This document shows, in pieces, positions 6,026 through 63,871 of a DNA stretch of 64,000 bases. Positions within the stretch are counted from its first letter, which is position 1, and every line of letters starts with the position of its first letter. Under the pieces are notes generated by a model. It was not told the origin of the DNA and did no database searches. It saw only the letters and a list, made by a program, of their open reading frames with translations. This DNA comes from Populus alba (Eukaryota; Streptophyta; Magnoliopsida; Malpighiales; Salicaceae). The stretch is from assembly GCF_005239225.2 (NCBI RefSeq), contig NC_133298.1:2046001-2110000 (forward strand), written 5' to 3'. A program made the translations under genes and the position numbers.

Positions 6026-7964
6026 TGTCGCACCCCAAAAAAAAATCTCTTAGCGCGCGGCATCGGCTGGCGATTTAAGTCTCGTTTTTGTTTGCTTGAA
6101 TTTGGTTCGTTGGAGTCGCCACCTAGTAATTGATTTTGGGCTACTAGGAAACCGGATGTACTGGTCTCGTCAGAGATCCGCGGGTACGGGACTGGTTGTG
6201 GTTAGGGAAGGTATTAGCACCCCTAACACACCCTACCTGAGGTAAGCTGCTTCGCGAATTTGATGTGTTAAAGAAGTTTTAATAATTGTCTTTTCATCGG
6301 AAATTAGGAATATCACTTACGTATAAGTTAATAATTCTGAACCGAGATCCGATCAAAATATTAAATTTCTTCTTTAATATATTTGCAATTCTATCATTAA
6401 AAAATATATACAAATAAAAAAAACAAAATACAAGCACACACATACACTTTCACTATTTTATTTTTGTTTCTTTTCTTTTCTTTTTCTTTTCTTTTCTTTT
6501 CTTTTCTTTTACATCCACTATACAAATACAAATTCAAATTCAAATTCAAAATAAATAAATAAAAATTACATTAATTAATTTAAAAATTACAAAATAGTCC
6601 CTAGAACTCCAGAAATTGCAGGGAAGGACTTCTGCCATCAGCTGGAACAGTGGCGGCGCGTCTCCCCACGCGCCACCGTCACTGGCGGGGCGTGGGTTCA
6701 CGCGCCGCCGCAAGAAAAACACAGCAACAGGGGGGGCTGGATCGACTTCCTCTCAGCCTCCCAACGCCGGCGATGACCTGCAGAACAAAAAAAGGGAGCA
6801 ACACAGCAGTCGATTTTAACTTTTTTCTTAGTTTTTCAGATCTGTTTTTATTCTCTCTTCACTGTTTCGGGTCTGCTTCTTCTTGTCCGATCTGGCTTCT
6901 CCTTCTCTGTTTTCAGGTGGCTGGAAGTGCGTCTGTGTTTCGGTCAATGGCTGCGCAGCTGCTGGTGTCCAAATCGTCGGCTTCAGCTGGCTTTGCTGTT
7001 GCAGTCCGCGGCCACTGGAGCTGTTGCGGAGATGGGCGAGGTTGCTAGCGGCGTTGAGGCGGAGGATCTGCGACCGACCAGTTGAAAGAGATGACCGGTC
7101 TTGGCTGGTCTGTGGCCGATCTGGTGGGTGTCGGTGCTGGTGCTGGTGCTGGTGCTGCTGCTACCACCGGTGGGGGGGAACGGCTGGAGCTTGTCCGGTG
7201 TGGAGATGGCAGTGGAGAGGGGGAAACAACCGGGAAGAAGACAACGCCTCCGCTGCACAGGGCTGCTGTTTTGGCCGGTTGAGGGCTGGCTTCGGTTGCT
7301 CTTTGGCAGGGAAGAGGTGGTCGGCGGGAGGAGATGAAGGGGGTAACAGCGGCTGTGGATGAAGAGGATGAGAGGCTGAAGGAGGAAAAAAATAATCCGG
7401 GTGGATTTGGAAGGGCTGTTTGGCCGGTTTCCAAAGAAAAAAAAAATTCAATTCGGGTGAGGGGCTGTGTGGGGGAGAAAAAAATGAATTGGCTCCGGCG
7501 GCTGGGAAAAAATTCAAACCAGAGGGGGGGGCGGCTGCTCTTCAAAAAAGATTAGGTTTAGGTTTTTTGTAATTTTTTGTGTTTCCAAAATTAACCCCCC
7601 TCTTTTGTTTGAGTTAAAGACCAGTATTTATAAGCAAAAATGTTGCTAGGTTTTTCAACTTGGTCCCTCAACTTCTTTCTTTTTGTAAATTTTGATTTTT
7701 CTTATTTTTTTGTATTTTTTGAAACGAGCAATATCAACGTCGACTCAAATACGGAAAATCAATGATTTAAAAATGACGCGTGAAAAGTCGAACACGTTTG
7801 AAAATCTTTTAACAATTTAAATTCTTTTTTTAGACGACGTTGAAAATGCTAAAATGATGAAAATATATTAAAAAAACATATTTTTTGGATTTTCATTGTT
7901 TTTCTCTATTTTTGGATTTTTTGAAAATATATCAAAAACATGGGTCAAAAATTGAGTAGCAACA
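6026..7964 (-). repeat. 3' LTR of the LARD
   Basis: A 1939-bp LTR, left copy on the + strand and therefore the 3' LTR in element orientation. It carries the complement of a TATA box (7625-7634) and a GC-rich 5' leader region (about 6600-7550). That GC-rich part produces many overlapping open frames, none with codon structure of a gene. A TTTTC microsatellite sits at 6468-6510. GGAGTCGCCA at 6112-6121 is part of a module shared with every large LTR in this window. Confidence 0.9.
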
Positions 7965-14985: not shown

Positions 14986-16928
14986 TGTCGCACCCCAAAA
15001 AAAAATCTCTTAGCGCGCGGCATCGGCTGGCGATTTAAGTCTCGTTTTTGTTTGCTTGAATTTGGTTCGTTGGAGTCGCCACCTAGTAATTGATTTTGGG
15101 CTACTAGGAAACCGGATGTACTGGTCTCGTCAGAGATCCACGGGTACGGGACTGGTTGTGGTTAGGGAAGGTATTAGCACCCCTAACACACCCTACCAGA
15201 GGTAAGCTGCTTCGCGAATTTGATGTGTTAAAGAAGTTTTAATAATTGTCTTTTCATCGGAAATTAGAAATATCACTTACGTATAAGTTAATAATTCTGA
15301 ACCGAGATCCGATCAAAAATATTAAATTTCTTCTTTAATATATTTGCAATTCTATCATTAAAAAATATATACAAATAAAAAAAACAAAAATACAAGCACA
15401 CACATACACTTTCACTATTTTATTTTTGTTTCTTTTCTTTTCTTTTTCTTTTCTTTTCTTTTCTTTTCTTTTACATCCACTATACAAATACAAATTCAAA
15501 TTCAAATTCAAAATAAATAAATAAAAATTACATTAATTAATTTAAAAATTACAAAATAGTCCCTAGAACTCCAGAAATTGCAGGGAAGGACTTCTGCCAT
15601 CAGCTGGAACAGTGGCGGCGCGTCTCCCCACGCGCCACCGTCACTGGCGGGGCGTGGGTTCACGCGCCGCCGCAAGAAAAACACAGCAACAGGGGGGGCT
15701 GGATCGACTTCCTCTCAGCCTCCCAACGCCGGCGATGACCTGCAGAACAAAAAAAGGGAGCAACACAGCAGTCGATTTTAACTTTTTTCTTAGTTTTTCA
15801 GATCTGTTTTTATTCTCTCTTCACTGTTTCGGGTCTGCTTCTTCTTGTCCGATCTGGCTTCTCCTTCTCTGTTTTCAGGTGGCTGGAAGTGCGTCTGTGT
15901 TTCGGTCAATGGCTGCGCAGCTGCTGGTGTCCAAATCGTCGGCTTCAGCTGGCTTTGCTGTTGCAGTCCGCGACCACTGGAGCTATTGCGGAGATGGGCG
16001 AGGTTGCTAGCGGCGTTGAGGCGGAGGATCTGCGACCGACCAGTTGAAAGAGATGACCGGTCTTGGCTGGTCTGTGGCCGATCTGGTGGGTGTCGGTGCT
16101 GGTGCTGGTGCTGGTGCTGCTGCTACCACCGGGGGGGGGGGAACAGCTGGAGCTTGTCCGGTGTGGAGATGGCAGTGGAGAGGGGGAAACAACCGGGAAG
16201 AAGACAACGCCTCCGCTGCACAGGGCTGCTGTTTTGGCCGGTTGAGGGCTGGCTTCGGTTGCTCTTTGGCAGGGAAGAGGTGGTCGGCGGGAGGAGATGA
16301 AGGGGGTAACAGCGGCTGTGGATGAAGAGGATGAGAGGCTGAAGGAGGAAAAAAATAATCCGGGTGGATTTGGAAGGGCTGTTTGGCCGGTTTCCAAAAA
16401 AAAAAAAATTCAATTCGGGTGAGGGGCTGTGTGGGGGAGAAAAAAATGAATTGGCTCCGGCGGCTGGGAAAAAATTCAAACCAGAGGGGGGGGCGGCTGC
16501 TCTTCAAAAAAGATTAGGTTTAGGTTTTTTGTATTTTTTTGTGTTTCCAAAATTAACCCCCTCTTTTGTTTGAGTTAAAAGACCAGTATTTATAAGCAAA
16601 AATGTTGCTAGGTTTTTCAACTTGGTCCCTCAACTTCTTTCTTTTTGTAAATTTTGATTTTTCTTATTTTTTTTGTATTTTTTGAAACGAGCAATATCAA
16701 CGTCGACTCAAATACGGAAAATCAATGATTTAAAAATGACGCGTGAAAAGTCGAACACGTTTGAAAATCTTTTAACAATTTAAATTCTTTTTTTTAGACG
16801 ACGTTGAAAATGCTAAAATGATGAAAATATATTAAAAAAACATATTTTTTGGATTTTCATTGTTTTTCTCTATTTTTGGATTTTTTGAAAATATATCAAA
16901 AACATGGGTCAAAAATTGGGTAGCAACA
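14986..16928 (-). repeat. 5' LTR of the LARD
   Basis: 1943 bp, differing from the left LTR by only a few substitutions and homopolymer length changes seen by eye. This implies a recent insertion. The TATA box complement is at 16587-16596. The GC-rich leader section (15560-16510) gives overlapping frames on both strands that are composition artefacts. Confidence 0.9.
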
Positions 16929-19640: not shown

Positions 19641-20051
19641 ATTAAAGGATTTAAAGTTTACCTCTAGAGCTTTCTCAATACAAGTAAACGAGCCTCTGAT
19701 TATGAAAGACTTTTAGTGAAGGGTGTTTTTGTCCAATCCATATTTCGAATTATTAAAGTTACGGCATTTAAATATAGTTATGGTTAAATTAAATCACGTA
19801 TTACCTTTTCACTATTTATTTATTGCTTCAGTACCTCACCACGAACTAGTCAAAAAATAAAATTAAATTACGTAATATAAGTCTGTATTGAAAATTGAGA
19901 AACACCGGAAAATTGACTTAGGAGTAGAAATTTGGACACATCTCACCAAAATTGAACATTTGTATTATTTTCTCGTATACTCTGTTCATATTTGCAGAAA
20001 ATTCATTATAGATCTCTCTCTGTATATCTCACATATGAAGAAACATGATAG

Positions 20052-20632
20052 GATGGCAGGTGGGAAGAATCCAGAAAGAAAAGGACAAGCATGAATCTGC
20101 ATTGAAACTTGCACAGGAGCTTATAGAAAGGAACAAGCGTCATTGGTGGCAATCTATCAATGTAGTAGGTCCTAACAAAGTTACTATCGAAACCCCTGGT
20201 CAAGGAGGAAGAGGACGACAAAGCGAAGGACAAAAAGGGGGAAGAAACCCAGGGGAAGGAGGAGGAAAAGGAGTAGACCCAGGGGAAGGAGGAGGAAAAG
20301 GAGGACAACGAGTAGACCCAATCCCGTTGTTTATTGCAATTAGTAATGGAATAGAAGAGATTGCTAAAGAAATACTTGAAAAATTTCCTCAGGGTGTTGA
20401 GCTTGTTAATGAAACAGGACAGAACATAATGCATGTAGCTGTGATGCATCGACGGCTGGAGATTTACAGTTATGTAAAGAAAACGTTCAAATCAATTATG
20501 ATCAGGCTGAGTTCGAGGATCGATAATAATGGCTACACATTGTTACACCACGTTGCACACATGAAGCACTACCGCGGAGGAACCAAGCCCAGCCCTGCAC
20601 TCAAACTACAAGAAGAAATACAATGGTTCAAG
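20052..20632 (+). CDS. Ankyrin-PGG gene 2, exon 4
   Basis: 581 nt, open throughout. It begins after acceptor CATGATAG with GWQVGRIQKEKDKHESALKL, the same phase as exon 4 of the paralogue. It ends ..EIQWFK at donor AAG|GTGAGT. A Gly/Glu/Lys-rich linker (residues about 50-95 of the exon), with a 30-bp direct duplication at about 20260-20305, precedes ankyrin repeats (NGIEEIAKEILEKFPQGVEL, NIMHVAVMHRR). The upstream 90 bp match the paralogue's intron. Exon identity is clear. Whether the gene is still expressed is doubtful given the damage upstream. Confidence 0.8.
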
Positions 20633-20688
20633 GTGAGTTAGCTACTCTTGTACTATCGTAACCCCTTGCCATATTTTTATGAGATACA

Positions 20689-24790: not shown

Positions 24791-24970
24791 ATACACAAAA
24801 TCAGTGAAACGCAGCTCTTTATGCCTTGCAGTAAATAAGAGTGTACTTTAATGTACATTCTGTTGCTTTAATAAAAGAGAATACGTGTCCATGATAGGGA
24901 ACCCATTTTCCTGTAATTAATGACTTTACCGACACTAATGAATATGTTTACATGTTCTCTGTCCGTGCAG

Positions 24971-25702
24971 CGGGTGCAGAGGGCGATTCCACCTTCTCTG
25001 TCCGAGAAGCGGGTGTGGGTGCAGAGGGCGATTCCACCTTCTCTGTCCGAGCAGTGGGTGCAAACACCGAGGGAGGTTCCGCCTGACAATGAAGGAATGC
25101 AACGTTGGAAGGAATTGACTGCACTCGACCTCTTCCAAGAGGAGCATAAAGATCAACTCAAGTTGGCGCAAGAATGGATCGAGAAGACCTCTCAGTCATG
25201 CTCAGCAGTAGCCGTTCTTTTGGCCACCGTTGTCTTTGCTGCCGCTTACACTATACCTGGAGGTTCTAACGATCTTGGCTTTCCCATTTTCCTTCACAAC
25301 CGTTTCTTCTTAGCTTTCACTGTCTTGGATGTTATCGCCTTGGCTAGCTCGTTGACCTCAGTTGTGATGTTCCTTTCTATCCTCACCTCTCCTTTTGAAT
25401 ATGAGAACTTCTACCACAATATTCCTCGGAAACTGATATTGGGCTTCATTTTACTCTTCTTCTCAGTGATGACAACCATGCTTGCTTTTGCTTGCACCCT
25501 TTTTCTAATAATTCATTTCAGAAAGAAATGGACCACGGGTCTTATTTCGTTTGCTGCTTTCTTTCCAGTGACAGTATTTGCACTAATGCAGTTCCATTTA
25601 TATTTCTCATTTCTGAGCACTATGAAGGACCTCTTTAAGGAAGCCGGGGAGTATCTACCTCGATATTGCTGTCCGTTTCGGTGCCAGCGTTACAAAAGAT
25701 AA
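24971..25702 (+). CDS. Ankyrin-PGG gene 2, exon 5 (PGG domain)
   Basis: The last exon, 243 aa plus stop. It starts after acceptor TCTCTGTCCGTGCAG in phase 0, joining WFK to RVQRAIPP. It carries EEHKDQLKLAQEWIEKTSQS, then the PGG domain (AAAYTIPGG) with four predicted membrane helices. This is the C-terminal membrane module of ITN1/ACD6-type plant ankyrin proteins. The segment before it holds two in-frame copies of a VQRAIPPSLSE unit, each ending in an AG that could act as an acceptor. The exon is intact; function depends on whether the gene is still transcribed across the huge introns. Confidence 0.8.
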   Translation, partial: RVQRAIPPSLSEKRVWVQRAIPPSLSEQWVQTPREVPPDNEGMQRWKELTALDLFQEEHKDQLKLAQEWIEKTSQSCSAVAVLLATVVFAAAYTIPGGSNDLGFPIFLHNRFFLAFTVLDVIALASSLTSVVMFLSILTSPFEYENFYHNIPRKLILGFILLFFSVMTTMLAFACTLFLIIHFRKKWTTGLISFAAFFPVTVFALMQFHLYFSFLSTMKDLFKEAGEYLPRYCCPFRCQRYKR

Positions 25703-31830: not shown

Positions 31831-34800
31831 TCATATTGAAGCAAACCATGTTCTTCTGGCCTTCCTGCCTTGCCTGGAATGGGAGCGGAAAGGGAGGTGG
31901 ATATAAGGTAGAGACTTCACGACTTCCTTGTAGAAGTCCTTTATAGTAGTCATAAAGGCGACATATAAAGGGAACTGCATTACTGCAAATACTGACACGG
32001 GAAGGAAAGCAGCAATGGACATCAGACCTGTGGTCCATTGCTTCTTCAAGCGAATGACTAAAAGAAGAGTGCAAGAAAAAGCAAGCATGGTTGTCATCAC
32101 TGAGAAGAAGAGCAAAGTAAAGCCCCATATCAGTTTCCGAGGAATACTGTGATAGAATTTCTCGCATTCAAAAGGAGTGGTGAGGATAGAAAGGAACATC
32201 ACAACTGAGGTCAAGGAGCTCGCTAAGGCGGTAACATCCAAGACAGTGAAAGCTATGAAGAAGCGGTTGTGAAGGAAAATGGGAAAGCCACGATCGTCAG
32301 AACCTCCAGGTATAGTGTAAGCGGCAGCAAAGACAACGGTGGCCAAAAGAACGGCTACTGCTGAGCATGACTGAGAGGTTTTCTCGATCCAATCTTGCGC
32401 CAACTTGAGTTGACCTTTATGCTCCTCTTGGAAGAGCTCGATTGCAGTCATGAGTTTGTAATTCTTGTCATTCGGAAGCGCCCACTGTACCTGCTGCTCG
32501 GACAGAGAAGGTGGAAACCACCCACTGCAGTCGCTGCTGACGGACAGAGAAGTGAAGGTGGAAACCACCCACTGTACCTGCTGCTCGGACAGAGAAGGTG
32601 GAACCACCCTCTGCACTCGCTGCACGGACAGAGAACATGGAAACAAATTCATCAGTGTCGGTAAACTCATTTATTATAGGTAAATGGGTTTCCCTATCAT
32701 CGGCACTTATTCTCTTTTTTCTTCTTCTATTAAAGCAACAGATTGTGCATTAAAGTGCAATCTTACTTTACTTGTTGCAAGGCTTAAAGAGCTGCCTTTC
32801 ACTGATTTTCAAGTAAATTGAAATATAGGCAAATTGAAAACTCTGCAATTAACGAACAGATATTACTGGAATGAAGAAATGCATTTCATAAAAATATGGC
32901 ATGGGTTACGATTGTACTAAGAGTAGCTAGCTCACCTTGAACCATTTTATTTCTTCTTGTAGCTGGAGAGCAGGGCCGGGCTTGGCTCCTCCGCTGTAGT
33001 GCTTCACGTGTGCAACTTGGTGCAACAATGTGAAGCCATTATTATCAACGCTCGAACTCATCCTGGTCACTATTATGTTCTTTTTCTTCACAAGACGGAA
33101 AATCTCCCGCCGTCGATGCATCACGGCCACATGCAATATGTTCTGTCCCTCATCATTAACAAGCTCAATTCCCTGAGGAAATTTATCAAGTATCTCTTCA
33201 GCAATCTCTACTATTCCATTACTAGTTGCTATAAACAACGGGTTTGGAGGTGAAGGAGGCCTCTCTTGTCTTCTATTTTCTTCTATCTTTGGTTGAACAT
33301 TTTCATTATTTTCTACCTCTTCTCCTCCCCCTCTTCCTGTGTCCACTCCTTCTCGTGCCCCCTCTTGTCCTTCGCCTCCTTCTCCTGGGATTCCTCTCCC
33401 TCCTTGACTCTCACTTTGTCCTCCTCTTCCTCCTTGACCAGGGGTCTTGATATTAACTTCAGTAGGCTTCACTTTGATAGATTGCCACCATTTACGCTGG
33501 TTCTTTTTTATAAGCTCCTTGGCAAGTTTCAATGCAGATTCATGCTTGTGCTTTTCTTTCCGGATTCTTTCCACCACTGGCCATCCTATCGTGTTTCTTC
33601 ATATGTGAGATATACACAGAGAGAGCTAGCTATAATGAATTTTGCAAATATGAACAGAGGAGTATACCGGAAAATATACAAAAGTTCAACTATGTCACAT
33701 TCCCAGAGTTTCACAAATAGAAGGCTGCGGAAAAATAATTCACACAGCAGCCGCTGACTGTTGCTTCCTATATGTATGAATGTATGAATGTATGTATGTA
33801 TAATTAGTATCACAAAAGGATTTCTGTTCTGGCTTCTCCTATTCTGTTAGATGGTTTTATTCCTCAACATGCCTTTGCAAGTTGAATATGGAGAAGGCAC
33901 CACATTCAAATAAGATCGACGGAATGCAGAGCGCGTAGATGAATGAGGTTTGGTAAGCACATCAACAATTTGATCATCAAATGATATGAACTGATCCTAG
34001 AGCTCTGTACGAGAGTGGCCATATCACGGAATAAGGGGAAATCAATTTAGCTTGAAAAACTGGATTCATAGTGAGATACATGGCCGTGAAATTATCACAT
34101 CATATAAAAGGAAGAGAAGATGCTGAAATTCCCAGGCCTAGAAAAAAGAGAATGGAGCCTTTTTAGCTCGGCAACTCGGATCTTTACAAATATAACCATA
34201 ACAAGATCCATTTTCTTTTAGTCTAATCGGATCAGAAAAAATTAATATTTTCTCTTTTGAAACGAGGAAACCCATTTTGACAAAGAAAACCCCCCAAGTC
34301 GGCGAGGTCAAGAGTTCTCCCTCAGTTCAAGTGACACTAAGAAAGGAGAAAAAGGTTTGTGTTTTTTTTTTAAAAAAAAAGATATTTTCTAATGTTCTAT
34401 CCATACTGTGATCATACTGTAGGCTAGCTTCTCTCCTATCTTTTCAACAATTTCCCAAGCACAAGCATGTGTTCTTGAAAGGATTAATGTCAACATTTTC
34501 AAATGCTTGTTAGAAAGATTATAGGGTAGTTCTTATTGTAGTTATATTCGGGTGGGCAGTACTAGCTCCAGAGGGAAACGCTAAACCCAAGCTCGAGACT
34601 GGACCAATCCATCGAGCCAGCTCGTGCGGTCTACCTCCCAATCTCTAAGTATAAGGCCGATGATATTTCTTGCTTGGCAGCAGGAAATTTAGTCCCTCGA
34701 CGAATTGCTGTCGGCATTTACTGAGGATTTTTGTTGCTATGAACAGTGTGGTTGTTGTTTATTACTTGCTCGATTTTAAAACCACAAGAACCAGGGAGCA

Positions 34801-35974
34801 TCATCAGTGCAAAATTATTATTGTCAATTTAATAGTTAGGCTGTCCAAGATGGCAAAATAGTTTGAATCTTCAGTACCTTTTTTACTCCGGCTCTGGTCG
34901 CCATCACCCTTTGCGGCGGAAAGGCCTGCGAAAAACTCACAACTTAAGTCAAATCAAACCTTCTGGGATTTAAAGTAGTGTAAGCAATTTAACATGCTCC
35001 AAGAAAAGAAAAGAAAACTCGAAAAGCAGTGTTTAATCAGCCATTTAAACAGCTTGCCTTGAGAGCAGATGTTCGAGCTGGGGTTAGCTTATTAACGCTG
35101 ATAATATAAATAAATAAATATAATAAAAAATGTTGCATCAAACATACAACGGTAGAACAAGTTCGTAATGGTGATTGGGCGCAGTGCACATCCACTCTTG
35201 AAAGCACTAGGCATCCCAGCAAGGACATGAAGACAGGTCATTCCCTGACTGTCCTTCATTTCATAAAGTGATGGATCCTTTTCCAGCAACGTCAGAGCAG
35301 TGTCTGCGTTAGAAAGTATAATGTCATTTTACTTTCTTTTTTTTCCTAATAAATTGTAGATTTAAGTTGTACCTAAAGTGTTTGGGGATGAATGTGTGTG
35401 CTAGATGTCTTAAGAGTCTCGTTTGAGAGAGAATAAAGGGATTAAGAGCAAAACCAAAGTGGTGTCCTTGGATGGCAGCATGAAGAATCGGATTTGAATC
35501 TTCTCTCTTGCGGTGATCCTCTGGTAGCTTTCCCTCTGAGATTTGGTCCGCTAAATGATCCACTATTTTTTTCTTACCACATGCAGCAGCTCTATACAAT
35601 GGAGTCTCCCCAAGCTTGTTTTTAGTCTGAAGTTGCATTGAAGGATCATAGTTGAGTAAGTGCTCTACTGCTTCCATATTTCCAGCGAAAACTGCTTCAT
35701 GAAGAACTGTATTTCCATACGCGTTCGTTTTTGTATAAGGATTCCCGAGCATTGGATTTTTTTTGGCAATATTGAGTAGAGCTTGAAGCGGGTTAACCTT
35801 TTTGCTATACACTGCCAGGTGCAATGGAGTATCTTCCGAAACCGTTACTGGAGACATCACGTACATCTCACTGCTGCCACTGCAAGCATAAATCATCCCA
35901 TCCCAGTCTTCTTCCAAGGCTGCTTGGTAGACATCCTTCGCTACAGTTTTATATGTCCTCTTTCTTCTATTCAT
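31831..35974 (-). CDS. Ankyrin-repeat/PGG-domain membrane protein (ITN1/ACD6-like), 5 exons, 720 aa
   Basis: Exons on the - strand: 35974-35455, 35303-35148, 34925-34878, 33585-32936, 32619-31831. All have GT-AG borders and agreeing phases (1,1,1,0). Residues 1-225 hold ankyrin repeats (EDTPLHLAVY, GNTVLHEAVFAGNMEAVEHL, GETPLYRAAACGKKKIVDHL). Residues about 242-458 hold a Gly/Glu-rich linker and further repeats (NILHVAVMHRR, GFTLLHQVAHVKH). Residues about 530-700 are the PGG domain (AAAYTIPGG at 556-564) with four membrane helices. Related plant proteins act at membranes in salt, calcium or salicylate-linked defence signalling. That role is inferred from family only. It is the complete paralogue of the damaged + strand gene. 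Confidence 0.85.
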
Positions 35975-36905
35975 TTTTGTCTACCTTAAAGCACCTCTGC
36001 AATTGCTTTAATAACCAGGAGCGAACTCGTAATGGCACGTTCTTGGTTCCAGCAAGCTCTTCATTGAATACATTAAGTAAACAAAAAACAATAGGGCTAG
36101 GCGGATTAACATCTATGATTGTGCTTGGGAGGCGAATCCTAAACAGCCTTCAACATGGCAACCTGCCATTTAGAAGAGAAGGTAAGGAAAATTAAGAAAG
36201 GGAGATATAGACTTGATCTTTATACTTTGTTTAATCAAAGGTGTATTATTCAATGCCTAAAACATAATATATTATTCACTTTGTGCTCAACTGAATGTTC
36301 CACAATCAATTTTGATAATTTAGATTCGAAGCAATGCTTGCAAAAAAGGGATATTCTATCAATGCCATCAATTTTGTAATTTTTTTCATATACAACATGG
36401 AAAAAACATATCGCTAACCACATGTTAGTGATGCCTTTTGTTTTTGTCAAAAATTCTATTTTCACTATTTTTCAATTCTAAAAAAAAAAAAAACTCATCT
36501 AAAAATAATAAAGAGAAAGAAAGTGACTTGTTGACGTCAATTCAACTGACCATGAAATAGTTTAATTTTAATGCTAAATGATTTCATTTCCGTAAATACA
36601 ATAAATACAAAGAGGTCAAAAAAATATATTTTCTTTTCACTTATTAAATACATTAAAATAAGAAGGGAGTATTTTTTTTCCTTTCACATAGCTTTTTTTG
36701 GTTAATTTCATAATTATTGGGAATAATTTGGTTTTTTTTTCTTGATAAATTAATATTTAAATTTAAAAGTTATTCGTGTATAATGCTCGTGTTTTTTAGT
36801 TGGCGTACGCTACTCCGATGATCAAACTTTACCACCCTCAGCCTATCATTTCACAATGTCTAATCGTTAGGTTCGCTTCCTGCGCCTCTGGCTTACTTTC
36901 CTCTC

Positions 36906-40613: not shown

Positions 40614-43600
40614 ATGAGTTTTCCTTCCCAGAGTTCTAACCAAGGGGCTTCCAAAGGCTCCAAAGCATCGCCTCCACAGGTCAGAATACTATTTCTTCTA
40701 CGGTATCAGTTCGTAATGATCAGGGGAAGCAAATGAAATGTTTAAATGATTTGACAATTTGGATTTTTTTTCCCTTGTTTAGGATGTTTCAAATGGTGCT
40801 GAAGGTACAGGATCATCGTTTCCCAGCATCCCCTCCAAGCTGAAAAAGCTAATCAGGAGAGGGTCTAAAGAGTGAGAATATGCGCCTTCCTTTATGAACA
40901 AATGATTTAATTTATATTTAGTTCTTTATTTTCTCGGTGACCTCAAGATGCAGTTCAAATAATTAAACTTTCGCTTTGCATATAATTAATCTTATTTTGA
41001 TATATAACTGAAAATAAAATATTAATTCTCGTCAAATTATTTGATAGAACTTTCTTTCTGTCAAATCTTAGGACTAAATGTTTTCTTTCTGGGATTCAAA
41101 CCTTAGGGATTGAAAATGGACTCATTTCAAGTCTCACAGGGTAAACTGAAACAAAATAAAACATTGAAAAAAGGGTTAAACCTCAAGATATTGGCCTGGT
41201 TTATCAAAGAACAACAGTACTTCTTACCTTAACTTTATGCTTCATCAAAAGGATCAGTGTTTAATTTCCAGCTTCTCCTCTAAGATAGAAAGTCCCTCAC
41301 AGAAGATTTTTAGAGTGGGTAAGAATATGCTTCTATATTTTTATTAGCAGTTTCTATTAGCATGCTTGTTTGCAGTGGTTTCAACACCGTTTATTAATCA
41401 GTATATTTTTTGTTGGAATGAGGTCCATTATTCATTTCTATGTCGAAAGGTCAGCCAGCCATATAAGGGCGATGTGAAAATTTAGTATTTAAGAGGATTA
41501 TCAATTTGCATGACTTTAATTGGCTTACTGTTGGTATTCGTCCACATTTAGATATCGTCTGAACTTCTAGTGAAGTCATTACCTGTGTAACTAAAGTTTA
41601 AGTCACATTTCTCAACCAGGCAGACAATCGACGCCATGTTAAAGTAAAACATGCTTCAGGTTGAATTTCCTTGAAAATCTAATTATTCCTGGTTAACAAA
41701 ATACGCAACACCAAAAAAGAGAAGATTCCACGCTTTCCTTTGAAATTTTCCATTAGCCATTGTATGCCATTGAAAAAGTAGAAAGTCTTCGGGACACACC
41801 AAGAGATGACTTTTGACCAAAACTTCCAAGCAAAATTGCATTAAAGTGACAAATGGTCTGAATTCTCCAGAACATTCGCTCAAAAAGAACAAGAAGATAT
41901 ATTGATCAATTGGAAGTAACCATCTGCTAAAAGAAAGGAACATAATCTGTTCTACACAGCTAACCATAAAAATGTCTGAATCTTTGGGGGATCTGCAGAA
42001 TCCCATATGTTTGATGTAAAAGAGCCATCAACTAGTGTACTGCAAGATTTAACTAAAAATCTCCCATCACTTCCAATATTCTAGATTTTAGCATTTGGAT
42101 TCCATTGAAAACAATTGAAATCTCGTTTAAGAGACTTTTGCAGGGAAGAAACTTGATCAAGCTCAAAAGCCCTTAACTCTCTTTGCCAACCTAACTGCCA
42201 AGTCCAAAATCCATTATACCATGAACTCAGGTTCAAAATTGTCACTAGCTTCCCAGGAGACAATTTGTATAGTCTCAGTTGTCTATTTTTCAGCAATGAA
42301 TCTCCCAACAACATATCATTTTAAAAGTGAACATACTCGTCATTTTGGACTACAAATCTAGTTTTATTTCTTAAAACTTTTGCATGGATTTATTGTTTTC
42401 ATTATTCGCTGCCAAATACATGATAGTTTCTTGCTGAAAAAGGAGCATTCTCAAAACTTGGGAGATACATTTTGTGGATTAAATCTCTCCCTTTACCTTA
42501 ATAAAAAGTAAACATCTCACGTTTTCTCTTACTAATTGATCCCTATACTTTTTGACCTGAACTTAATAAAGAAAAATTGTATCTATAACTGGCCTTAAAT
42601 TATAGTGAAGTCTTGAATATGAACTTCTCTTGAGAACATATTCATGGTTCATAGTAATTGATTGTTTTGTAATTAACAGGGCATTGTTTAACATAAATAA
42701 ATAAGAAAAACTTGATGTGGCGAAATCCGGCGACCGGTGATGTACTGATAATTGCTCAATGGAGGGGAAGCACACTGACACACAATATTTAACGTGGTTC
42801 GGCAAATCGCCTACATCCACGGGAGAGATAGATATTATTAGAGATAGAGAAAGAATACAATACATGGAGGAGGATCACATCCACTCAACTCCCATCTCTC
42901 ATTGCTACATAGGGTAGCAGCTGCATAAGGCAGCAGGGCTGCTGGTGGCAGCCCTTCTCTTTCTTTCTCTCTTCTTCTCTATTTTGTAGCTCTCCTACAA
43001 GACTCTCTCTCTCACTTTGTGCTGCACTCTTGGTGTCTATTTATAGGCTTCAATGATAGCTCCTCTTGCTCCTTTGTCATCAATGGTGGCTGCCAAACTC
43101 TCCTCTTGCTTCGGACCATACCATTGCATCCGGAATGATTAAATTAGCTGGAAACATGTCTTGAATCGTTCAAATCGCACTTCAGATGGCTAAGATTTGA
43201 TCAAAACAATTCTGGCCTGATCAAAGGCTTAGATTCAATCTCAGATCCAGTTGCACGTAGGATCAGCTACACTGGATCCTATCCCTCGGCTCGCGGCTCG
43301 GCTCCAACTCAGCTCGGCTCCACTCGGCTCCACTTGGCTCGGCTCGCGGCTAATGACATGGCAGGTGGGTCCCACTATGCTGACATGTCAGTTGACTAGT
43401 CAATGGCTTGCTGACTGTGTATGCTGATGTCATCCTTGTATAATGCTGATGTCGTCCTTTGCATGACACTGTTCATGATAACGTCACTGTTCATGTCTAT
43501 TGTTCATACTGTATTCGGGTCGGGTCAACTCATCCGGGTGAAGAAGACGCGTGGGGCGCGTCTGAGCGCGTGGGCAGACGCCTTGCCGGAGAGTGATGGA

Positions 43601-46600
43601 GAGTGCGGCCATGTCCGACGACCAATTTTGACGCCGTTTTCACCAGTGGCTTCGTATCGTCCTCCTCTACATAGTGGGATGGTCAAAACACCATTTTGAC
43701 AACTTTCATTTTTGAGCAAAGATCAAACACCACTTTAAACCAAAAAAGCTCTGATACCATTTGACGTGGCGAAATCCGGCGACCGGTGATGTACTGATAA
43801 TTGCTCAATGGAGGGGAAGCACACTGACACACAATATTTAACGTGGTTCGGCAAATCGCCTACATCCACGGGAGAGATAGATATTATTAGAGATAGAGAA
43901 AGAATACAATACATGGAGGAGGATCACATCCACTCAACTCCCATCTCTCATTGCTACATAGGGTAGCAGCTGCATAAGGCAGCAGGGCTGCTGGTGGCAG
44001 CCCTTCTCTTTCTTTTTCTTTTTTAAAAAAAAAGATGGGCGAAATCCGGCGACCGGTGATGTACTGATAATTGCTCAATGGAGGGGAAGCACACTGACAC
44101 ACAATATTTAACATGGTTCGGCAAATCGCCTACATCCACGAGAGAGATAGATATTATTAGAGATAGAGAAAGAATACAATACATGGAGGAGGATCACATC
44201 CACTCAACTCCCATCTCTCATTGCTACATAGGGTAGCAGCTGCATAAGGCAGCAGGGCTGCTGGTGGCAGCCCTTCTCTTTCTTTCTCTCTTCTTCTCTC
44301 TTTTGTAGCTCTCCTACAAGACTCTCTCTCTCACTTTGTGCTGCACTCTTGGTGTCTATTTATAGGCTTCAATGATAGCTCCTCTTGCTCCTTTGTCATC
44401 AATGGTGGCTGCCAAACTCATCTCTTCTTCAACAAAGATGGCTACCAAAGTCAAGGTTGGTGGTTGCCACCAACAAGCCTCCTTCTTTGACAATGTCAAC
44501 ATAATTGGCAATATTCCAACAAAACTCACATGATTCTAGCATTAGTTTACCTCTTCTCACTTTACAATTTGTGATTAAGGATACTGTTATTCCCATTCCA
44601 CAACTTGTTAATCTCACTCTATGTTCTTTTTAATTGACAAGAATAATCTTCTTCCATAACAACTGAAATAATATGGTATTATTTTACATATTATAAAACA
44701 AACACACAATTGACTTATAAAACCTCTCCCTACAAAAAATATAATAATCTAAAAGTAGTTGTCATCAGCGATATAATACCTATATTCTTGTTGAAGTGTT
44801 GTATTACAAATTTTGGTGTGGTTCATCATCTGTTGTTATGTTACTAGAAGTAAAATAAGAAATAACAAATTTTGGTATTTTGCTAATAGAGTAAAACATG
44901 CTTCATAATATTAATTTGCTTTCCAATAGTTGTGCATTAAATTCAGAACTTCTTTCGTTATTTGATACTAAGAAGATTTCGACAAATATTAACAGCAGTA
45001 AGGCAAGTAGCGACTCTCAACAACCATCTTCAAATAATGAAAATCCAGAGACGCATACAGAACCGGCCCTCTCACAGGTGAGAATACTAATGACTGGTAA
45101 TTAATCATCAGTTCGTGATGATCAGGGGTCAAATGAGATGGTTTCATGATAACAATTTGGAAATTCTATTGTTTGACATGTTTTATAGGGCGTTGATGGT
45201 AAAACCACGTTTAAACCAAAGGATCATTTAGGCAACATTTCGGAGGAAGAGTGTCAAGATTCGACAATTTCTGAAAGGCGAGGATAATATATACCTATTT
45301 TCTTGTTGAAGTGTTGTTTTACAAATTTTGATGTGGTTCATCATCTGCTGTTATGTTACTAGAAGTAAAATAAGAAATAACAAATTTTGGTATTTTGTTA
45401 ATAGAGTAAAACATGCTTCATAATATTAATTTGCTTTTCAATAGTTGTGCATTAAATTCAGAACTCCTTTCGGTATTTGATACTAAGAAGATTTTGACAA
45501 ATATTAACAGCAGTAAGGCAAGTAGCGACTCTCAACAACCATCTTCAAATAATGAAAATCCAGAGACGCATACAGAACCGGCCCTCTCACAGGTGAGAAT
45601 ACTAATGACTGGTAATTAATCATCAGTTCGTGATGATCAGGGTCAAATGAGATGGTTTCATGATAACAATTTGAAATTCTATTGTTTGACATGTTTTATG
45701 GGGCGTTGATGGTAAAACCACGTTTAAACCAAAGGATCATTTAGGCAACATTTCGGAGGAAGAGTGTCAAGATTCGACAATTTCTGAAAGGCGAGGATAA
45801 TATATACCTATTTTCTTGTTGAAGTGTTGTTTTACAAATTTGATGTGGTTCATCATCTGCTGTTATGTTACTAGAAGTAAAATAAGAAATAACAAATTTT
45901 GGTATTTTGTTAATAGAGTAAAACATGCTTCATAATATTAATTTGCTTTTCAATAGTTGTGCATTAAATTCAGAACTCCTTTCGGTATTTTGATACTAAG
46001 AAGATTTTGACAAATATTAACAGCAGTAAGGCAAGTAGCGACTCTCAACAACCATCTCCAAATAATGAAAATCCAGAGACGCATACAGAACCGGCCCTCT
46101 CACAGGTGAGAATACTAATGACTGGTAATTAATCATCAGTTCGTGATGATCAGGGTCAAATGAGATGGTTTCATGATAACAATTTGGAAATTCTATTGTT
46201 TGACATGTTTTTATGGGGCGTTGATGGTAAAACCACGTTTAAACCAAAGGATCATTTAGGCAACATTTCGGAGGAAGAGTGTCAAGATTCGACAATTTCT
46301 GAAAGGCGAGGATAATATATACCTATTTTCTTGTTGAAGTGTTGTTTTACAAATTTTGAATGTGGTTCATCATCTGCTGTTATGTTACTAGAAGTAAAAT
46401 AAGAAATAACAAATTTTGGTATTTTGTTAATAGAGTAAAACATGCTTCATAATATTAATTTGCTTTTCAATAGTTGTGCATTAAATTCAGAACTCCTTTC
46501 GGTATTTGATACTAAGAAGATTTTGACAAATATTAACAGCAGTAAGGCAAGTAGCGACTCTCAACAACCATCTCCAAATAATGAAAATCCAGAGACGCAT

Positions 46601-49600
46601 ACAGAACCGGCCCTCTCACAGGTGAGAATACTAATGACTGGTAATTAATCATCAGTTCGTGATGATCAGGGGTCAAATGAGATGGTTTCATGATAACAAT
46701 TTGGAAATTCTATTGTTTGACATGTTTTATAGGGCGTTGATGGTAAAACCACGTTTAAACCAAAGGATCATTTAGGCAACATTTCGGAGGAAGAGTGTCA
46801 AGATTCGACAATTTCTGAAAGGCGAGGATAATATATACCTATTTTCTTGTTGAAGTGTTGTTTTACAAATTTTGATGTGGTTCATCATCTGCTGTTATGT
46901 TACTAGAAGTAAAATAAGAAATAACAAATTTTGGTATTTTGTTAATAGAGTAAAACATGCTTCATAATATTAATTTGCTTTTCAATAGTTGTGCATTAAA
47001 TTCAGAACTCCTTTCGGTATTTGATACTAAGAAGATTTTGACAAATATTAACAGCAGTAAGGCAAGTAGCGACTCTCAACAACCATCTTCAAATAATGAA
47101 AATCCAGAGACGCATACAGAACCGGCCCTCTCACAGGTGAGAATACTAATGACTGGTAATTAATCATCAGTTCGTGATGATCAGGGGTCAAATGAGATGG
47201 TTTCATGATAACAATTTGGAAATTCTATTGTTTGACATGTTTTATGGGCGTTGATGGTAACCACGTTTAAACCAAAGGATCATTTAGGCAACATTTCGGA
47301 GGAAGAGTGTCAAGATTCGACAATTTCTGAAAGGCGAGGATAATATATACCTATTTTCTTGTTGAAGTGTTGTTTTACAAATTTTGATGTGGTTCATCAT
47401 CTGCTGTTATGTTACTAGAAGTAAAATAAGAAATAACAATTTTGGTATTTTGTTAATAGAGTAAAACATGCTTCATAATATTAATTTGCTTTTCAATAGT
47501 TGTGCATTAAATTCAGAACTCCTTTCGGTATTTGATACTAAGAAGATTTTGACAAATATTAACAGCAGTAAGGCAAGTAGCGACTCTCAACAACCATCTC
47601 CAAATAATGAAAATCCAGAGACGCATACAGAACCGGCCCTCTCACAGGTGAGAATACTAATGACTGGTAATTAATCATCAGTTCGTGATGATCAGGGGTC
47701 AAATGAGATGGTTTCATGATAACAATTTGGAAATTCTATTGTTTGACATGTTTTATAGGGCGTTGATGGTAAAACCACGTTTAAACCAAAGGATCATTTA
47801 GGCAACATTTCGGAGGAAGAGTGTCAAGATTCGACAATTTCTGAAAGGCGAGGATAATATATACCTATTTTCTTGTTGAAGTGTTTGTTTTACAAATTTT
47901 GATGTGGTTCATCATCTGCTGTTATGTTACTAGAAGTAAAATAAGAAATAACAAATTTTGGTATTTTGTTAATAGAGTAAAACATGCTTCATAATATTAA
48001 TTTGCTTTTCAATAGTTGTGCATTAAATTCAGAACTCCTTTCGGTATTTGATACTAAGAAGATTTTGACAAATATTAACAGCAGTAAGGCAAGTAGCGAC
48101 TCTCAACAACCATCTCCAAATAATGAAAATCCAGAGACGCATCCAGAGACGCAGGTGAGAATACTAATGAATTGTAATTAATTATCGGTTCGTGATGATC
48201 AGGGGTCAAATGAGATGGTTTCATGATAACAATTTGAAAATTCTATTGTTTGATATGTTTTATAGGGCGCTTATGGTAAAAACACGTTTAAACCAAAGGA
48301 TCTTTTAAGCAACATTTTGGAGGAAGAAAGTCAAGATTGGACAATTTCTGAAATGTGAGGATAATATATTCCTATTTTCTTGTTGAAGTGTTGTACGTGT
48401 TATAAATTTTGGTGTGGTTCATCATCTGCTGTTATGTTACAAGTATTTGGTTAATAGAAGTAAAATTAGAATTATTAAATGAGGTAGAGAAAAGTATGGG
48501 TTTGAGTTTAACACACGTCTAAAACCTTAAGGCTAGACAAAAATACAACTAAAGTTGTAGAAGTCTATAGTTTATTCAACAAAAGTGCCATGAAATCTGA
48601 AAAGATTTGTTTAAATACCTCAAATAACTAGGAAACAACTAATCGAGAAAAATAATAAAGCTAAAATCCAAAATTTAGAAGGAAAAAGTAGAAACAACTA
48701 ACCGTTTTTGTTTGTCGATGTGATCCATAAAATCCCGGGTAATTATTCCACATCATTAAATTAAAATCAAAATCTTTGGTGAATATTCTTGCATGTATTC
48801 ATTATATATATAAAAAAAACCAATATACAAAGTTCCCGCCATACTTTTAGTTATCGTTTCTTCCTGTTGTTTCCTTTCATTTTTGGTCGAGACCATAAAA
48901 AAAAGTTTTGATTTATTTCCTTACTTGCCAGGATTGGATTTTAGGAGTGAGTATATTAAACTAGAGACCAATGGTTTACCATCATGATGGAACTGTGTCA
49001 CTACCTTTTGTGCATCTGCTGATTCTGAATAGTGGTGCTGCAGTTTTTGTAGAGACTATTTTGTTTATCTCAACACGATTCTATTAATTTGCTCTTTGCA
49101 TGCTATAGGGATGGTACTGCAGAGCTGCTAGAAGGGTGTTGGCTTGATGTAACTGGTTCAATGCCTGCTACCAAAGGGAAGGCGTATGAAATTAGCTTCA
49201 TATTATCCATGAATGAAAAGAATTCCTTTGGCTGGGAAGATCCTGTTTATGTGATGGCTAGGATAGGAGAGGAGGGAGAATATACGCGCGTACAAATAGA
49301 TCTATCAAAATTAAAAGGGGAAGTAGTGGAATTTCCTCCGGATAAGTGTCGGGTTGAACCTCGTGGAATTTCCTCCGAAAGTGATGAAAAATCTGAAAGT
49401 AAAGCTCGTGAGAAGAAGAGTCAGACTAATAAAAAAGGTGCTGAAAACGCTAAAAATGACAAGGAGATGCTCTATTTTGGCTTGTATGAAGTGTGGACTA
49501 ACAACTGGAAGGGTGGTCTACGGGTTCATGAGGCCATAGTTCAGGAAATACCAGCTGGGATTAATGATCCTCCACCTAATACCCCTTCCGACGACTCCAA

Positions 49601-49787
49601 AGTGCAAGAAGTAATTACAGCTGACAAGTTTACTTCAGCGTCTGGAAACCCCCCCCCGGACATGTCCATAATTAAGAAAGTACCAGATCCTCTCGACGAG
49701 TTCGTAGCTCAGAAAACATCAGTTCACGATTCGGCCTCTACATCTACTAAGCATGTTGGTGATGATAATGGCTGCCGCATTTCGTGA
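40614..49787 (+). CDS. PHLOEM PROTEIN 2-like gene 1 with amplified internal exons
   Basis: Exon 1 is 40614-40679 (MSFPSQSSNQGASKGS.., phase 0). Exon 2 is 40783-40871 (DVSNGAEGTGSSFPS..SKE, ends phase 2). Then come up to seven exon pairs A/B (44930-48354) and the final exon 49109-49787. The final exon encodes the PP2 lectin core: LLEGCWLDVTG, ISFILSM, VYVMARIG and LYFGLYEVWTNNWKGGLRV. It contains a Lys/Glu-rich insertion (about 49376-49465) and an 80-residue tail ending in CRIS. Exon B of the last unit is a diverged form of the PP2 N-terminal exon of the gene at 62232. All joins keep frame. PP2 proteins are phloem or defence-associated lectins; the function here is inferred from family. Which exons reach the mRNA is unknown. 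Confidence 0.65.
41683..42330 (-). pseudogene. LINE ORF2 C-terminal fragment in the PP2 gene 1 intron
   Basis: The - strand reads GWQRELRAFELDQVSSLQKS (42314-42081), then a frame with LPIDQYIFLFFLSECSG and GKFQRKAWNLLFFGVAYFVN. This is the zinc-binding region at the C-terminus of plant LINE reverse transcriptases. It is broken by stops, with no full element. It lies between exon 2 and the amplified exons. 42331-42707 holds nothing recognisable. Confidence 0.6.
42713..44521 (-). mobile_element. TRIM-like non-autonomous LTR element with rearranged LTRs
   Basis: Starts TGATGTGGCGAAATC and ends AATATTCCAACA, flanked by the perfect target duplication AAACT (42708-42712, 44522-44526). LTR sequence occurs three times: 42713-~43105, 43763-~44030 (truncated at an A-run) and ~44040-44521. 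GCTCTGATACCA (43749-43760) just left of the second copy is the complement of TGGTATCAGAGC, an initiator-tRNA-Met primer site, so the element runs on the - strand. The short interior (about 43110-43745) has no gag or pol. It sits in an intron of PP2-like gene 1, opposite to the gene. Confidence 0.8.
44930..45277 (+). CDS. PP2-like gene 1, exon pair A1/B1
   Basis: Exon A1 44930-45077 (CALNSELLSLFDTKK to ALSQ) with acceptor TTCCAATAG and donor GTGAGA. Exon B1 45189-45277 (GVDGKTTFKPKDHLGN..) with acceptor TTTTATAG and a GC donor (GAAAG|GCGAGG). It is the most diverged of the first six A exons, as expected for an array edge. Confidence 0.5.
46474..46821 (+). CDS. PP2-like gene 1, exon pair A4/B4
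   Basis: A4 46474-46621 and B4 46733-46821 keep all acceptors and frames. The donor of B4 is GC. With units 1, 6 and 7 it belongs to the subset that could still be spliced in full. Confidence 0.45.
47500..47847 (+). CDS. PP2-like gene 1, exon pair A6/B6
   Basis: A6 47500-47647 and B6 47759-47847. Acceptors are intact, the frame is intact and the donor is GC (GAAAG|GCGAGG). Nearly identical to unit 4. Confidence 0.45.
48016..48354 (+). CDS. PP2-like gene 1, exon pair A7/B7 (GT donor)
   Basis: A7 48016-48154 is 9 nt shorter (ends NPETHPETQ). B7 48266-48354 reads AYGKNTFKPKDLLSNILEEE then SQDWTISE and ends at a canonical donor GAAAT|GTGAGG. It aligns with exon 2 of the PP2 gene at 62510-62595 (FKPRGLHITWS then SYWKMPE), keeping the Trp. 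The phase-2 end joins to GATGGTACT of the final exon, giving ISEMDGTAELL. It is probably the ancestral, functional pair. Confidence 0.6.
48361..49108. other. Last intron of PP2-like gene 1
   Basis: AT-rich intron between B7 and the lectin-core exon, with acceptor GCATGCTATAG at 49108. No further PP2 N-terminal exon was found in it. Confidence 0.55.
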
Positions 49788-62231: not shown

Positions 62232-62336
62232 ATGTCAGAGGCTGCTGATCCTGAAGAAGTGGAACACGATAAGGTTGGATATATTATTAGCTATTTTAGT
62301 ACCACTTTCTGCACTAATATTTGTTTGTTGTAGTCC

Positions 62337-62374
<38 letters not shown>

Positions 62375-63124
62375 TATATATAGATAAAATCTGTAAACAA
62401 ACTTGGGTTTTAGTTTGATATTAGAAGGTTTCTGAGAATGTCCATCTATCTTTTATGAGTAAAAAATGAGGTTGTTAATGGTGAGCTGGAATTATTTTTA
62501 TGCTTACAGGATGAAGGTAGGTGGAGGTTTAAACCAAGGGGATTGCACATCACATGGAGTAGTAATTCAAGTTATTGGAAGATGCCTGAGAAAGGGTAGA
62601 GAGAATTATCCCTTCGATCAAATTATATCGTTTCAATGCTTCAAGTATTGTAAATAATCAAATGATATAGACAGAAACTATCATAAAATAATAATTTTCT
62701 GACATAGATCTCATTGGATGCTTAAGTTCTACACATAAATTTCAGGACGGATGGTCCTGCAGTGTTGCTGGCGGTATGCTGGCTTGAAATAGACGGCTCA
62801 ACTTCGGAACCCCTGTCCAAAGGGAAGAGGTATGCACTGAGCTTCAAAATATCTATGAAAAAACAAGATCCTGCTTGGAAGGAAGGTCCTGTTTTCATGT
62901 TAGCTAAGGTAGGGAAGAAAGGAATTGCCCAATGGGAAAAAATCAATTTAGGAGATATGAGAATCGGCAACATAGTCGAAATTCCTCATGGGAAGCTTCG
63001 GTTTGAAGTTCCGAAAAAGGCTGAAGATACCAGGCTCTATTTCGGACTCTACGAATTGTGGACTGGAAATTGGAAGCAAGGTTTACAAATTCATGAAGCT
63101 GTAGTTGAAGAAATGCCAGATTGA
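62232..63124 (+). CDS. PHLOEM PROTEIN 2-A-like lectin gene 2, 3 exons, 168 aa
   Basis: Exons 62232-62273 (MSEAADPEEVEHDK), 62510-62595 and 62746-63124. GT-AG borders, phases 0 and 2, total 507 nt. Exon 2 gives WRFKPRGLHITWS and SYWKMPE. Exon 3 gives VCWLEIDGS, YALSFKISM, VFMLAKVG and LYFGLYELWTGNWKQGLQI, ending VVEEMPD. This is a complete PP2 domain with a very short N-terminus, no signal peptide and no membrane segment, so it is probably cytosolic or phloem. Family members bind glycans and are stress or defence-responsive; this copy's role is inferred. A TA microsatellite (about 62339-62372) lies in intron 1. Confidence 0.85.
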
Positions 63125-63586: not shown

Positions 63587-63871
63587 GATGGTCCTGAAGA
63601 GCTGCTACTGGTGTGTTGGTTTGGAGTAACAGATCATGTAACGAAGGGGAAGAGGTTTGAAATTAGTAATTTACCTCAAGTTATCCATGAAAAACAACGC
63701 ATTTTCTTGGACTGCTACTCGTGTTTTGATGATGGCTAGGATAGGAAGAGAGGGAAGATGCTCATGTTTAAAAATAAACCAATGATTAATAAATCCAAAT
63801 TAAGCTATGTTTTGGCTTGTAATTAGAAAAGTGTGGACAAACTGGCTAATTCATGAGGCCATATAGTTCAG
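63587..63871 (+). pseudogene. Degenerate third PP2-like copy
   Basis: Starts DGPEELLLVCWFGVTDHVTK GKRFEIS in the frame of the lectin-core exon. It then breaks by frameshifts and stops (MARIGREG is still visible near 63730 in another frame, and HEAI near 63856). The LYFGLYEVW core is destroyed. No upstream exons were found. It makes a tandem trio with the genes at 40614 and 62232. Confidence 0.7.

Follow-up and report, generated by a model that had tools for sequence, protein, structure and literature searches.

Putative recent tandem amplification of a frame-neutral exon pair within a PP2-A9-like gene of Populus alba

Intragenic tandem exon duplication is reportedly the subject of work by Kondrashov and Koonin in 2001. 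For the PP2/Nictaba lectins, the accessible part of one source describes proteins with two tandem Nictaba domains (PMC5485960), and that of another gives the PP2 genes of Brassica napus mostly three exons in clusters II–IV and two to six in cluster I (PMC8999561). Here we analyse a stretch of 64,000 nucleotides (nt) of Populus alba (contig NC_133298.1, positions 2,046,001 to 2,110,000), hereafter the window, in which a PP2-A9-like gene carries seven tandem units, each with two exon-like segments named A and B, in the large interval between its exon 2 and the core exon. This array would result from the recent intragenic amplification of an ancestral, frame-neutral A-B pair. The initial annotation of the window knew of no PP2 gene built this way: the open-licence literature searched gave us none either, nor any PP2 exon array or description of the paralogue LOC118045217, but the database entry of the latter (P0045 below) contains five copies of an overlapping exon pair.

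The units are found as first proposed, at about 515 base pairs (bp), with a spacing of 507–516 bp and an A-like and a B-like segment in each (Table 1). The limits first given for the array were 44768..48360; the homology runs slightly further, to about 48443, so that the whole extends over 44771-48443. Tandem Repeats Finder overlooked it, its longest period being 500. Because units 2–6 are nearly identical to each other—0–2 substitutions per ~510 bp in a multiple alignment, 0–3 in separate pairwise alignments—a chance similarity is excluded; the left half of unit 1 and the right half of unit 7 have diverged from the remaining units. We thus find neighbouring homologous exons, in one orientation, inside one gene, their membership of a single transcript being suggested by the relatives.

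The assignment of the gene comes from its core. The 225-residue core (49110-49784) is 100% identical to the Populus alba protein A0A4U5Q0A1 (P0001), its homologue search gave 44 matches, Populus accounting for 18 of the 22 that bear an organism name, and the core exon reaches 49.4 bits against the Pfam PP2 profile (PF14299, cut-off 25), from profile position 35. In all 47 proteins (P-numbers hereafter) were compared, 26 of which, P0001 included, form alignment A1, and all 26 score above the gathering score of PF14299. The gene can be read as PP2-A9-like (Nictaba/PF14299), and comparison with relatives suggests that exons 1 and 2 are transcribed together with the core. The N-terminus encoded by exon 1 is like the MSF-starting N-termini of P0004, P0006, P0023, P0029 and P0045. 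Exon 2 is left, and the core entered, in phase 2.

The array keeps a readable trace of its formation. Units 1 and 7 differ at 31 substitution sites, and each of the five internal units follows unit 7 as far as 44980 and unit 1 from 45057 on, 31/31 sites fitting one switch; site 45030 shows the unit-1 state in units 2 and 5 and the unit-7 state in units 3, 4 and 6. Since an unequal exchange between two tandem copies inserts a unit whose 5' portion comes from the right copy and whose 3' portion comes from the left, this single switch within 44981-45056, inside or at exon A, is best read as the product of an unequal crossover. The unequal crossing-over invoked in the initial annotation is thereby borne out, hybrid internal units standing between diverged end units as expected. 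Two diverged copies, of unit 1 type and of unit 7 type, would have recombined unequally inside or at exon A, and the multiplication of the resulting hybrid would have given the five near-identical internal units. The converse order, with ancestral internal units and divergence at the ends alone, fits less well: judged by eye against P0045 and the other relatives, the B exons of units 1–6 have derived residues in common (V, H, G, C, and S in place of W), those of unit 7 being different (Y, N and L). For this reason the founding left copy would have had a degraded B before multiplying, and the amplified hybrids would have inherited this unit 1-type B, with its GC donor and its lost tryptophan (Trp).

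Such a regular pattern bears on the possibility that the array is an assembly artefact, its copy number or sequence being wrong through excess copies or uncorrected insertions and deletions (indels). The indels do lend it some weight: units 2–6 have nine indel events (eight of a single base, most in short runs) for two substitution sites, against six indels for 19 substitutions in the control pair 6026-7964/14986-16928 (Fisher p = 0.0024), and the array indels look partly like residual read error. But at least four unit types (unit 1, internal-T, internal-C and unit 7), in a consistent recombinant pattern, do not come from copying one unit, and P0001, possibly from the same assembly, has an internal-type unit beside unit 7. 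We consider an artefactual array very unlikely. An error is also unlikely for the GC donor of B, since it is common to six units.

The start of unit 1 (44771) is homologous to the intron just 3' of B7 (48364 on), with a score of 347 reached by 0/200 shuffles. Since unit 1 thus opens with post-B7 intron homology, a further unit may once have stood to its left and been lost. No hidden whole unit was detected in the first part of intron 2 by comparison with unit 6 (77/200 shuffles reach the score). A stretch of 19 nt of intron 2 (41639-41658) nearly matches the region upstream of A1 (2/300 shuffles), possibly a trace of the array breakpoint.

Going further back, the A-B pair might itself derive from the beginning of the gene. 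Exon 1 with A and exon 2 with B show no significant similarity (170/300 and 276/300 shuffles reach the score), and a plain duplication of exon 1 into A or of exon 2 into B was dropped for want of this exon-exon similarity. The whole block exon 1-intron 1-exon 2 aligns strongly with A7-intron-B7 (40659-40821 to 48130-48289, score 285, 0/200 shuffles, maximum 126), mainly through the introns, and on this account intron 1 and the A-B intron are treated as homologous. The flanks gave nothing significant, either for the start of intron 2 against the post-B intron (223/300 shuffles) or for the region upstream of A1 against that upstream of exon 1 (298/300). Likewise an ordinary PP2 gene lying downstream did not significantly match A7-B7 (179/300 shuffles), a second comparison being weak (4/200).

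The intron phases are those proposed at the outset: A runs from phase 2 to 0 and B from 0 to 2, with exon 2 left and the core entered in phase 2, which supports A-B as a two-exon frame-neutral cassette. The size of the module is another matter. The initial annotation counted 79 codons per unit, on the basis of a 148-nt A entered at CAATAG/TTGTGC (the slash marks the splice point). With this A, A+B amounts to 237, 237, 238, 237, 235, 237 and 228 nt in units 1 to 7, that is exactly 79 codons in four units of seven only; the frame is kept in five, but not in unit 3, with a 1-nt insertion within the extended A, nor in unit 5, whose B is frameshifted by a 2-nt deletion. Among the proteins compared, the A motif occurs in 8/47, and the extension in a single one of these eight, the P. 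alba database protein P0001, which led us to reject the 148-nt form as the main exon. In the other seven, exon 2-type sequence runs directly into ...KAS(S)DSQQ, as fits entry at a NAGNAG acceptor giving an A of 79 or 82 nt; both forms occur, e.g. GSKASS and GKASS, P0013 having GTKASS. The module would be of 56 codons because seven of the eight A-bearing proteins fit this acceptor, the choice of which is read from protein and not from DNA. Exon A then measures 79 nt in units 1–6 but 70 nt in unit 7, where it is shorter by 9 nt without loss of frame, and exon B 89 nt except in unit 5 (87 nt); A+B makes 168 nt, or 56 codons, in units 1–4 and 6, 166 nt (out of frame) in unit 5 and 159 nt in unit 7. 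The joins from exon 2 to A and from B to the core are in frame with either start of A.

The splice sites of the two exons have fared differently. In every unit exon A has its AG acceptor, as the tandem CAGCAG, together with a CAG/GTGAGA donor. Exon B has an acceptor AG in units 1, 4, 6 and 7 but none in units 2, 3 and 5, and its donor is GC (AAG/GCGAGG) in units 1–6, GT (AAT/GT) being found in unit 7 only. A+B is a multiple of three in 6/7 units, but the B acceptor remains in 4/7 and the GT donor in 1/7. In B, the amplified type differs from B7 by eight non-synonymous changes to one synonymous (full codons), which shows no sign of purifying selection; between units 1 and 7, 10/89 sites differ in B and 6/111 in the neighbouring intron, which is not significant (p = 0.19).

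In other Populus proteins the A-B pair stands as a single copy. One A-B precedes the core in P0004, P0006, P0008, P0013, P0023 and P0029, five of them from Populus; P0008 begins inside exon 2 and P0013 has a shortened A. P0004 (323 residues, from a 1,280-nt contig) is probably complementary DNA, 1,280 nt being too short for these introns. In P0014 and P0022 exon 2 is joined directly to the core, A-B being absent, and P0022 and P0023 are isoforms X3 and X2 of P. euphratica with an identical core. We read A and B as ancestral exons. As relatives are found with and without the pair, these isoforms included, it has the look of a cassette that keeps the frame and that annotation either includes or skips. 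A scan of viral and genome contigs for a contaminating poplar contig gave pattern matches only, no relative being confirmed.

B corresponds to a part of the lectin domain itself, namely its N-terminal strand with the Trp motif, and A to a low-complexity linker. The PF14299 match of P0006 and P0029 opens at profile position 6, at residue 85 or 86 and hence inside exon B, which begins at 78 or 79. More widely, it opens at positions 5–8 in P0006, P0021, P0029, P0045 and P0047, against position 30 in the window gene, whether B7 or B1 is used. A 26-protein profile places the B stretch, both Trp included, on the N-terminus of the solved phloem lectin 7vs6; the search of solved structures gave no match with the core alone and five with the alignment. 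According to a review, Trp residues in motif M1 matter when the Nictaba domain binds sugar (PMC6362431); these would be the two Trp of B. In units 1–6 both Trp of the conserved pair of the N-terminal strand are absent (ISEEECQDSTISE), and B of unit 7 has the second only (ILEEESQDWTISE).

Unit 7 adjoins the core, and no other unit combines AG and GT at A as well as at B; because of this we propose, with a probability of roughly 60%, that unit 7 supplies the B joined to the core, units 1–6 being mostly removed with the intron. The main transcripts would be exon 1-exon 2-(one A)-B7-core or exon 1-exon 2-core, units 1–6 being for the most part spliced out with the large intron and only occasionally included. 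Several points weigh against this proposal. The splicing is here deduced from the sequence. The major spliceosome takes care of most GC-AG introns, and the 97.9% given for plants, which we read as the GT-AG share, leaves GC-AG a minor but genuine class (PMC7072748); as AAG/GCGAGG is in our judgement otherwise a fair donor, units 1, 4 and 6 could be usable. Two proteins also point the other way, P0001 of P. alba, which includes two units, and P0045, in which an exon 2-A array is modelled as coding. Finally the acceptor losses and the frameshift of unit 5 may be uncorrected assembly errors, in line with the indel excess, and B7 itself may be decaying, with one of its two Trp left.

These points are also those on which the gene might make a repeat protein, as the initial annotation suggested for spliced units. 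The A-B units with usable B sites—at most 1, 4, 6 and 7—would be joined one after another, either by way of GC-AG and GT-AG introns or from a GT inside B to the next A, entered at its upstream acceptor. The lectin would then have a long, disordered N-terminal tail, longer or shorter according to the copy number. P0001 reads as two units joined via the inner B donor and the extended A, P0045 is a modelled protein of 555 residues with five repeats of 56–57 residues, the B-to-A joins are in frame, and six units in series (unit 5 omitted) form an open frame of 610 residues. But P0001 and P0045 are database proteins with no visible transcript support, the B acceptor AG is missing in 3/7 units and the donor is GC in 6/7, and in the amplified B the Trp is gone and the replacement pattern is that given above. 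Moreover, the 610-residue query gave four matches, none so built, among the 7,990 candidates scored that share most words with it. Altogether this outcome seems unlikely, if worth keeping in mind. The junction peptide ...ISESKASSDSQQ... would arise only from units joined one after another via the GC donor.

The intact sites of A lend themselves to still another idea, in which one A of the seven is chosen and followed by B7, the array serving as a weak alternative-exon array or a splicing decoy. The A acceptor AG and GT donor are kept in 7/7 units while the B sites decay, and any A joins B7 in frame by phase. Yet the A peptides of units 1–6 vary at one S/P site, unit 7 differing mainly by its 3-codon deletion, so that choosing between nearly alike peptides gives little diversity. 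We hold such a choice improbable.

Predicted structures were considered for P0045 and P0001. The AlphaFold2 model of P0045 is poor overall, with a mean predicted local distance difference test score (pLDDT) of 53.1: its repeats (block means 35–51) are without structure, residues 301–320, with B from 307, form a short strand at 71–81, the rest of B falls to 34–45, and residues 351–470 reach 66–93 by block. In that of P0001 (mean 56.7) the first 120 residues are at 27–39, a block at the start of B7 reaches 79, then 42. Foldseek on the P0045 model ranks the phloem lectin 7yaq first (E value 8.7e-6), hinokiresinol synthase 8jmq second, and the lectins 7vub and 7vs6 third and fourth; the PP2 beta-sandwich fold is thus recovered, on the model of this paralogue. 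A Pfam match of P0045 to LZ_Tnp_IS66 (5e-6, no single stretch passing) was taken as an artefact of repetitive sequence.

A common principle may underlie the array and its relatives. Exons 1, 2, A, B and core meet successively at phases 0, 2, 0 and 2, and because the phases alternate in this way any even block of exons is frame-neutral. P0045 (P. alba LOC118045217 isoform X3, 555 residues) is built as exon 1-(exon 2-A)x5-B-core, with repeats of 57, 57, 57, 57 and 56 residues. P0047, from another Salicaceae, Dovyalis caffra, reads as (1-2-A-B)x2-core: its halves align with a score of 156 for a maximum of 69 in 500 shuffles, and its upstream B is without Trp, as in the window gene. The exon boundaries of both are taken from protein homology, not DNA. 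Three registers of one ladder, A-B, 2-A and 1-2-A-B, thus appear to have been multiplied. Frame-neutral even blocks would tolerate arrays, so that the paralogue could multiply 2-A five-fold, and if intron 1 and the A-B intron are homologous they would give a 2-A crossover the sequence match that it needs. It is tempting, but doubtful, to generalise that the PP2-A9-like ladders of Salicaceae repeatedly grow by unequal crossing-over into disordered lectin tails of variable length, with a copy number differing between trees and the units of the window gene translated via GC-AG introns. As for P0046 of Populus tomentosa, its model fuses a Copia-type retrotransposon N-terminal part to PP2, possibly a prediction artefact.

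The surroundings of the array contain other duplicated sequences. The core exon (49109-49787) looks mosaic: its first 68 residues are nearest to the P0003/P0045 type (62/68, with 53/68 for P0020 and 43/68 for P0028), and the next segment has a SDEKSESK...TNKKG-like insert, as in P0028 and P0027, which suggests exchange between clustered PP2 paralogues. Downstream lies a PP2-A-like gene, 62232-63124, of three exons by eye (core 62750-63118, PF14299 55.5 bits), then a third PP2-like core near 63587-63870, apparently broken as judged by eye. Repeats like those of long terminal repeat (LTR) retrotransposons sit in the large intron and end about 340 bp to the left of the array; their strand is given by GCTCTGATACCA, which we take, by eye, to be a primer binding site-like motif for tRNA-Met. 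Elsewhere in the window we note a direct repeat of about 1.94 kb (6026-7964 and 14986-16928, 99.1% identical, 9 kb apart) and duplicated pieces on both strands resembling an ankyrin-repeat/PGG-type membrane protein, named by eye from open reading frames (ORFs).

Table 1. Coordinates of the features discussed, counted from the first nucleotide of the window
Feature	Position	Strand	Remarks
Exon 1	40614..40679	+	ATG, 22 codons, phase 0 at end
Exon 2	40783..40871	+	phase 0 to 2; like HVSKGAEGTGSSF... in relatives
LTR-retrotransposon-like repeats	42706..44430	-	a repeat of ~260-407 bp occurring as three partial copies (97.5-98.9% alike)
Unit 1	44771..45293	+	A 44999-45077, B 45189-45277; B AG acceptor, GC donor
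Unit 2	45294..45806	+	A 45514-45592, B 45702-45790; B acceptor AG lost, GC donor
Unit 3	45807..46321	+	A 46027-46105, B 46217-46305; B acceptor AG lost, GC donor
Unit 4	46322..46837	+	A 46543-46621, B 46733-46821; B AG acceptor, GC donor
Unit 5	46838..47349	+	A 47058-47136, B 47247-47333; B acceptor AG lost, GC donor
Unit 6	47350..47863	+	A 47569-47647, B 47759-47847; B AG acceptor, GC donor
Unit 7	47864..48370	+	A 48085-48154, B 48266-48354; B AG acceptor, GT donor
Partial eighth copy	48371..48443	+	intron just 3' of B7, with homology to the beginning of unit 1
Core exon	49109..49787	+	most of the PP2/Nictaba domain, disordered tail, stop codon
Ankyrin/PGG-like pieces	20039-20641, 24917-25702, 31831-32670, 32927-33598, 35324-35980	both	by eye from ORFs

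The locus offers a clear case of intron phase making a gene permissive for the amplification of exon blocks, where related genes appear to have multiplied one ladder, each in its own register, and where a single array keeps the products of recombination readable. Such an array tests whether exon arrays turn into coding repeats or get silenced by the decay of their splice sites. It is possibly a phloem-lectin-related locus of variable copy number, which could be typed in poplar populations; gene models across arrays of this kind are possibly unreliable.

Compared with known systems, the nearest is isoform X3 of LOC118045217, of the same subfamily and made of the same segments 1, 2, A, B and core, which likewise bears, as read from its protein, a tandem array of a two-exon frame-neutral block. 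There the block is exon 2 with A (phase 0 to 0, 56–57 residues), in five copies before a single B, whereas in the window gene it is A with B (phase 2 to 2), in seven copies, most of the B splice sites being degraded. The single-module PP2-A9-like proteins P0006 (P. nigra LOC133676272 isoform X2) and P0029 (POPTR_015G120000) have the order 1-2-A-B-core as here, but with one A-B only and a B that matches PF14299 from position 6. With regard to the Nictaba/PP2 phloem lectins (PDB 7vs6, 7yaq, 8ad2), their domain corresponds to the core exon plus exon B; in the window gene B is degenerate, units 1–6 lacking both Trp of its motif and unit 7 keeping the second. Finally, as in intragenic tandem exon duplication, the copies are adjacent, in one orientation and inside one gene; what differs is that a two-exon block is present here in seven copies, with putative hybrids of unequal crossover among them, and that a paralogue appears to multiply another register of the same ladder.

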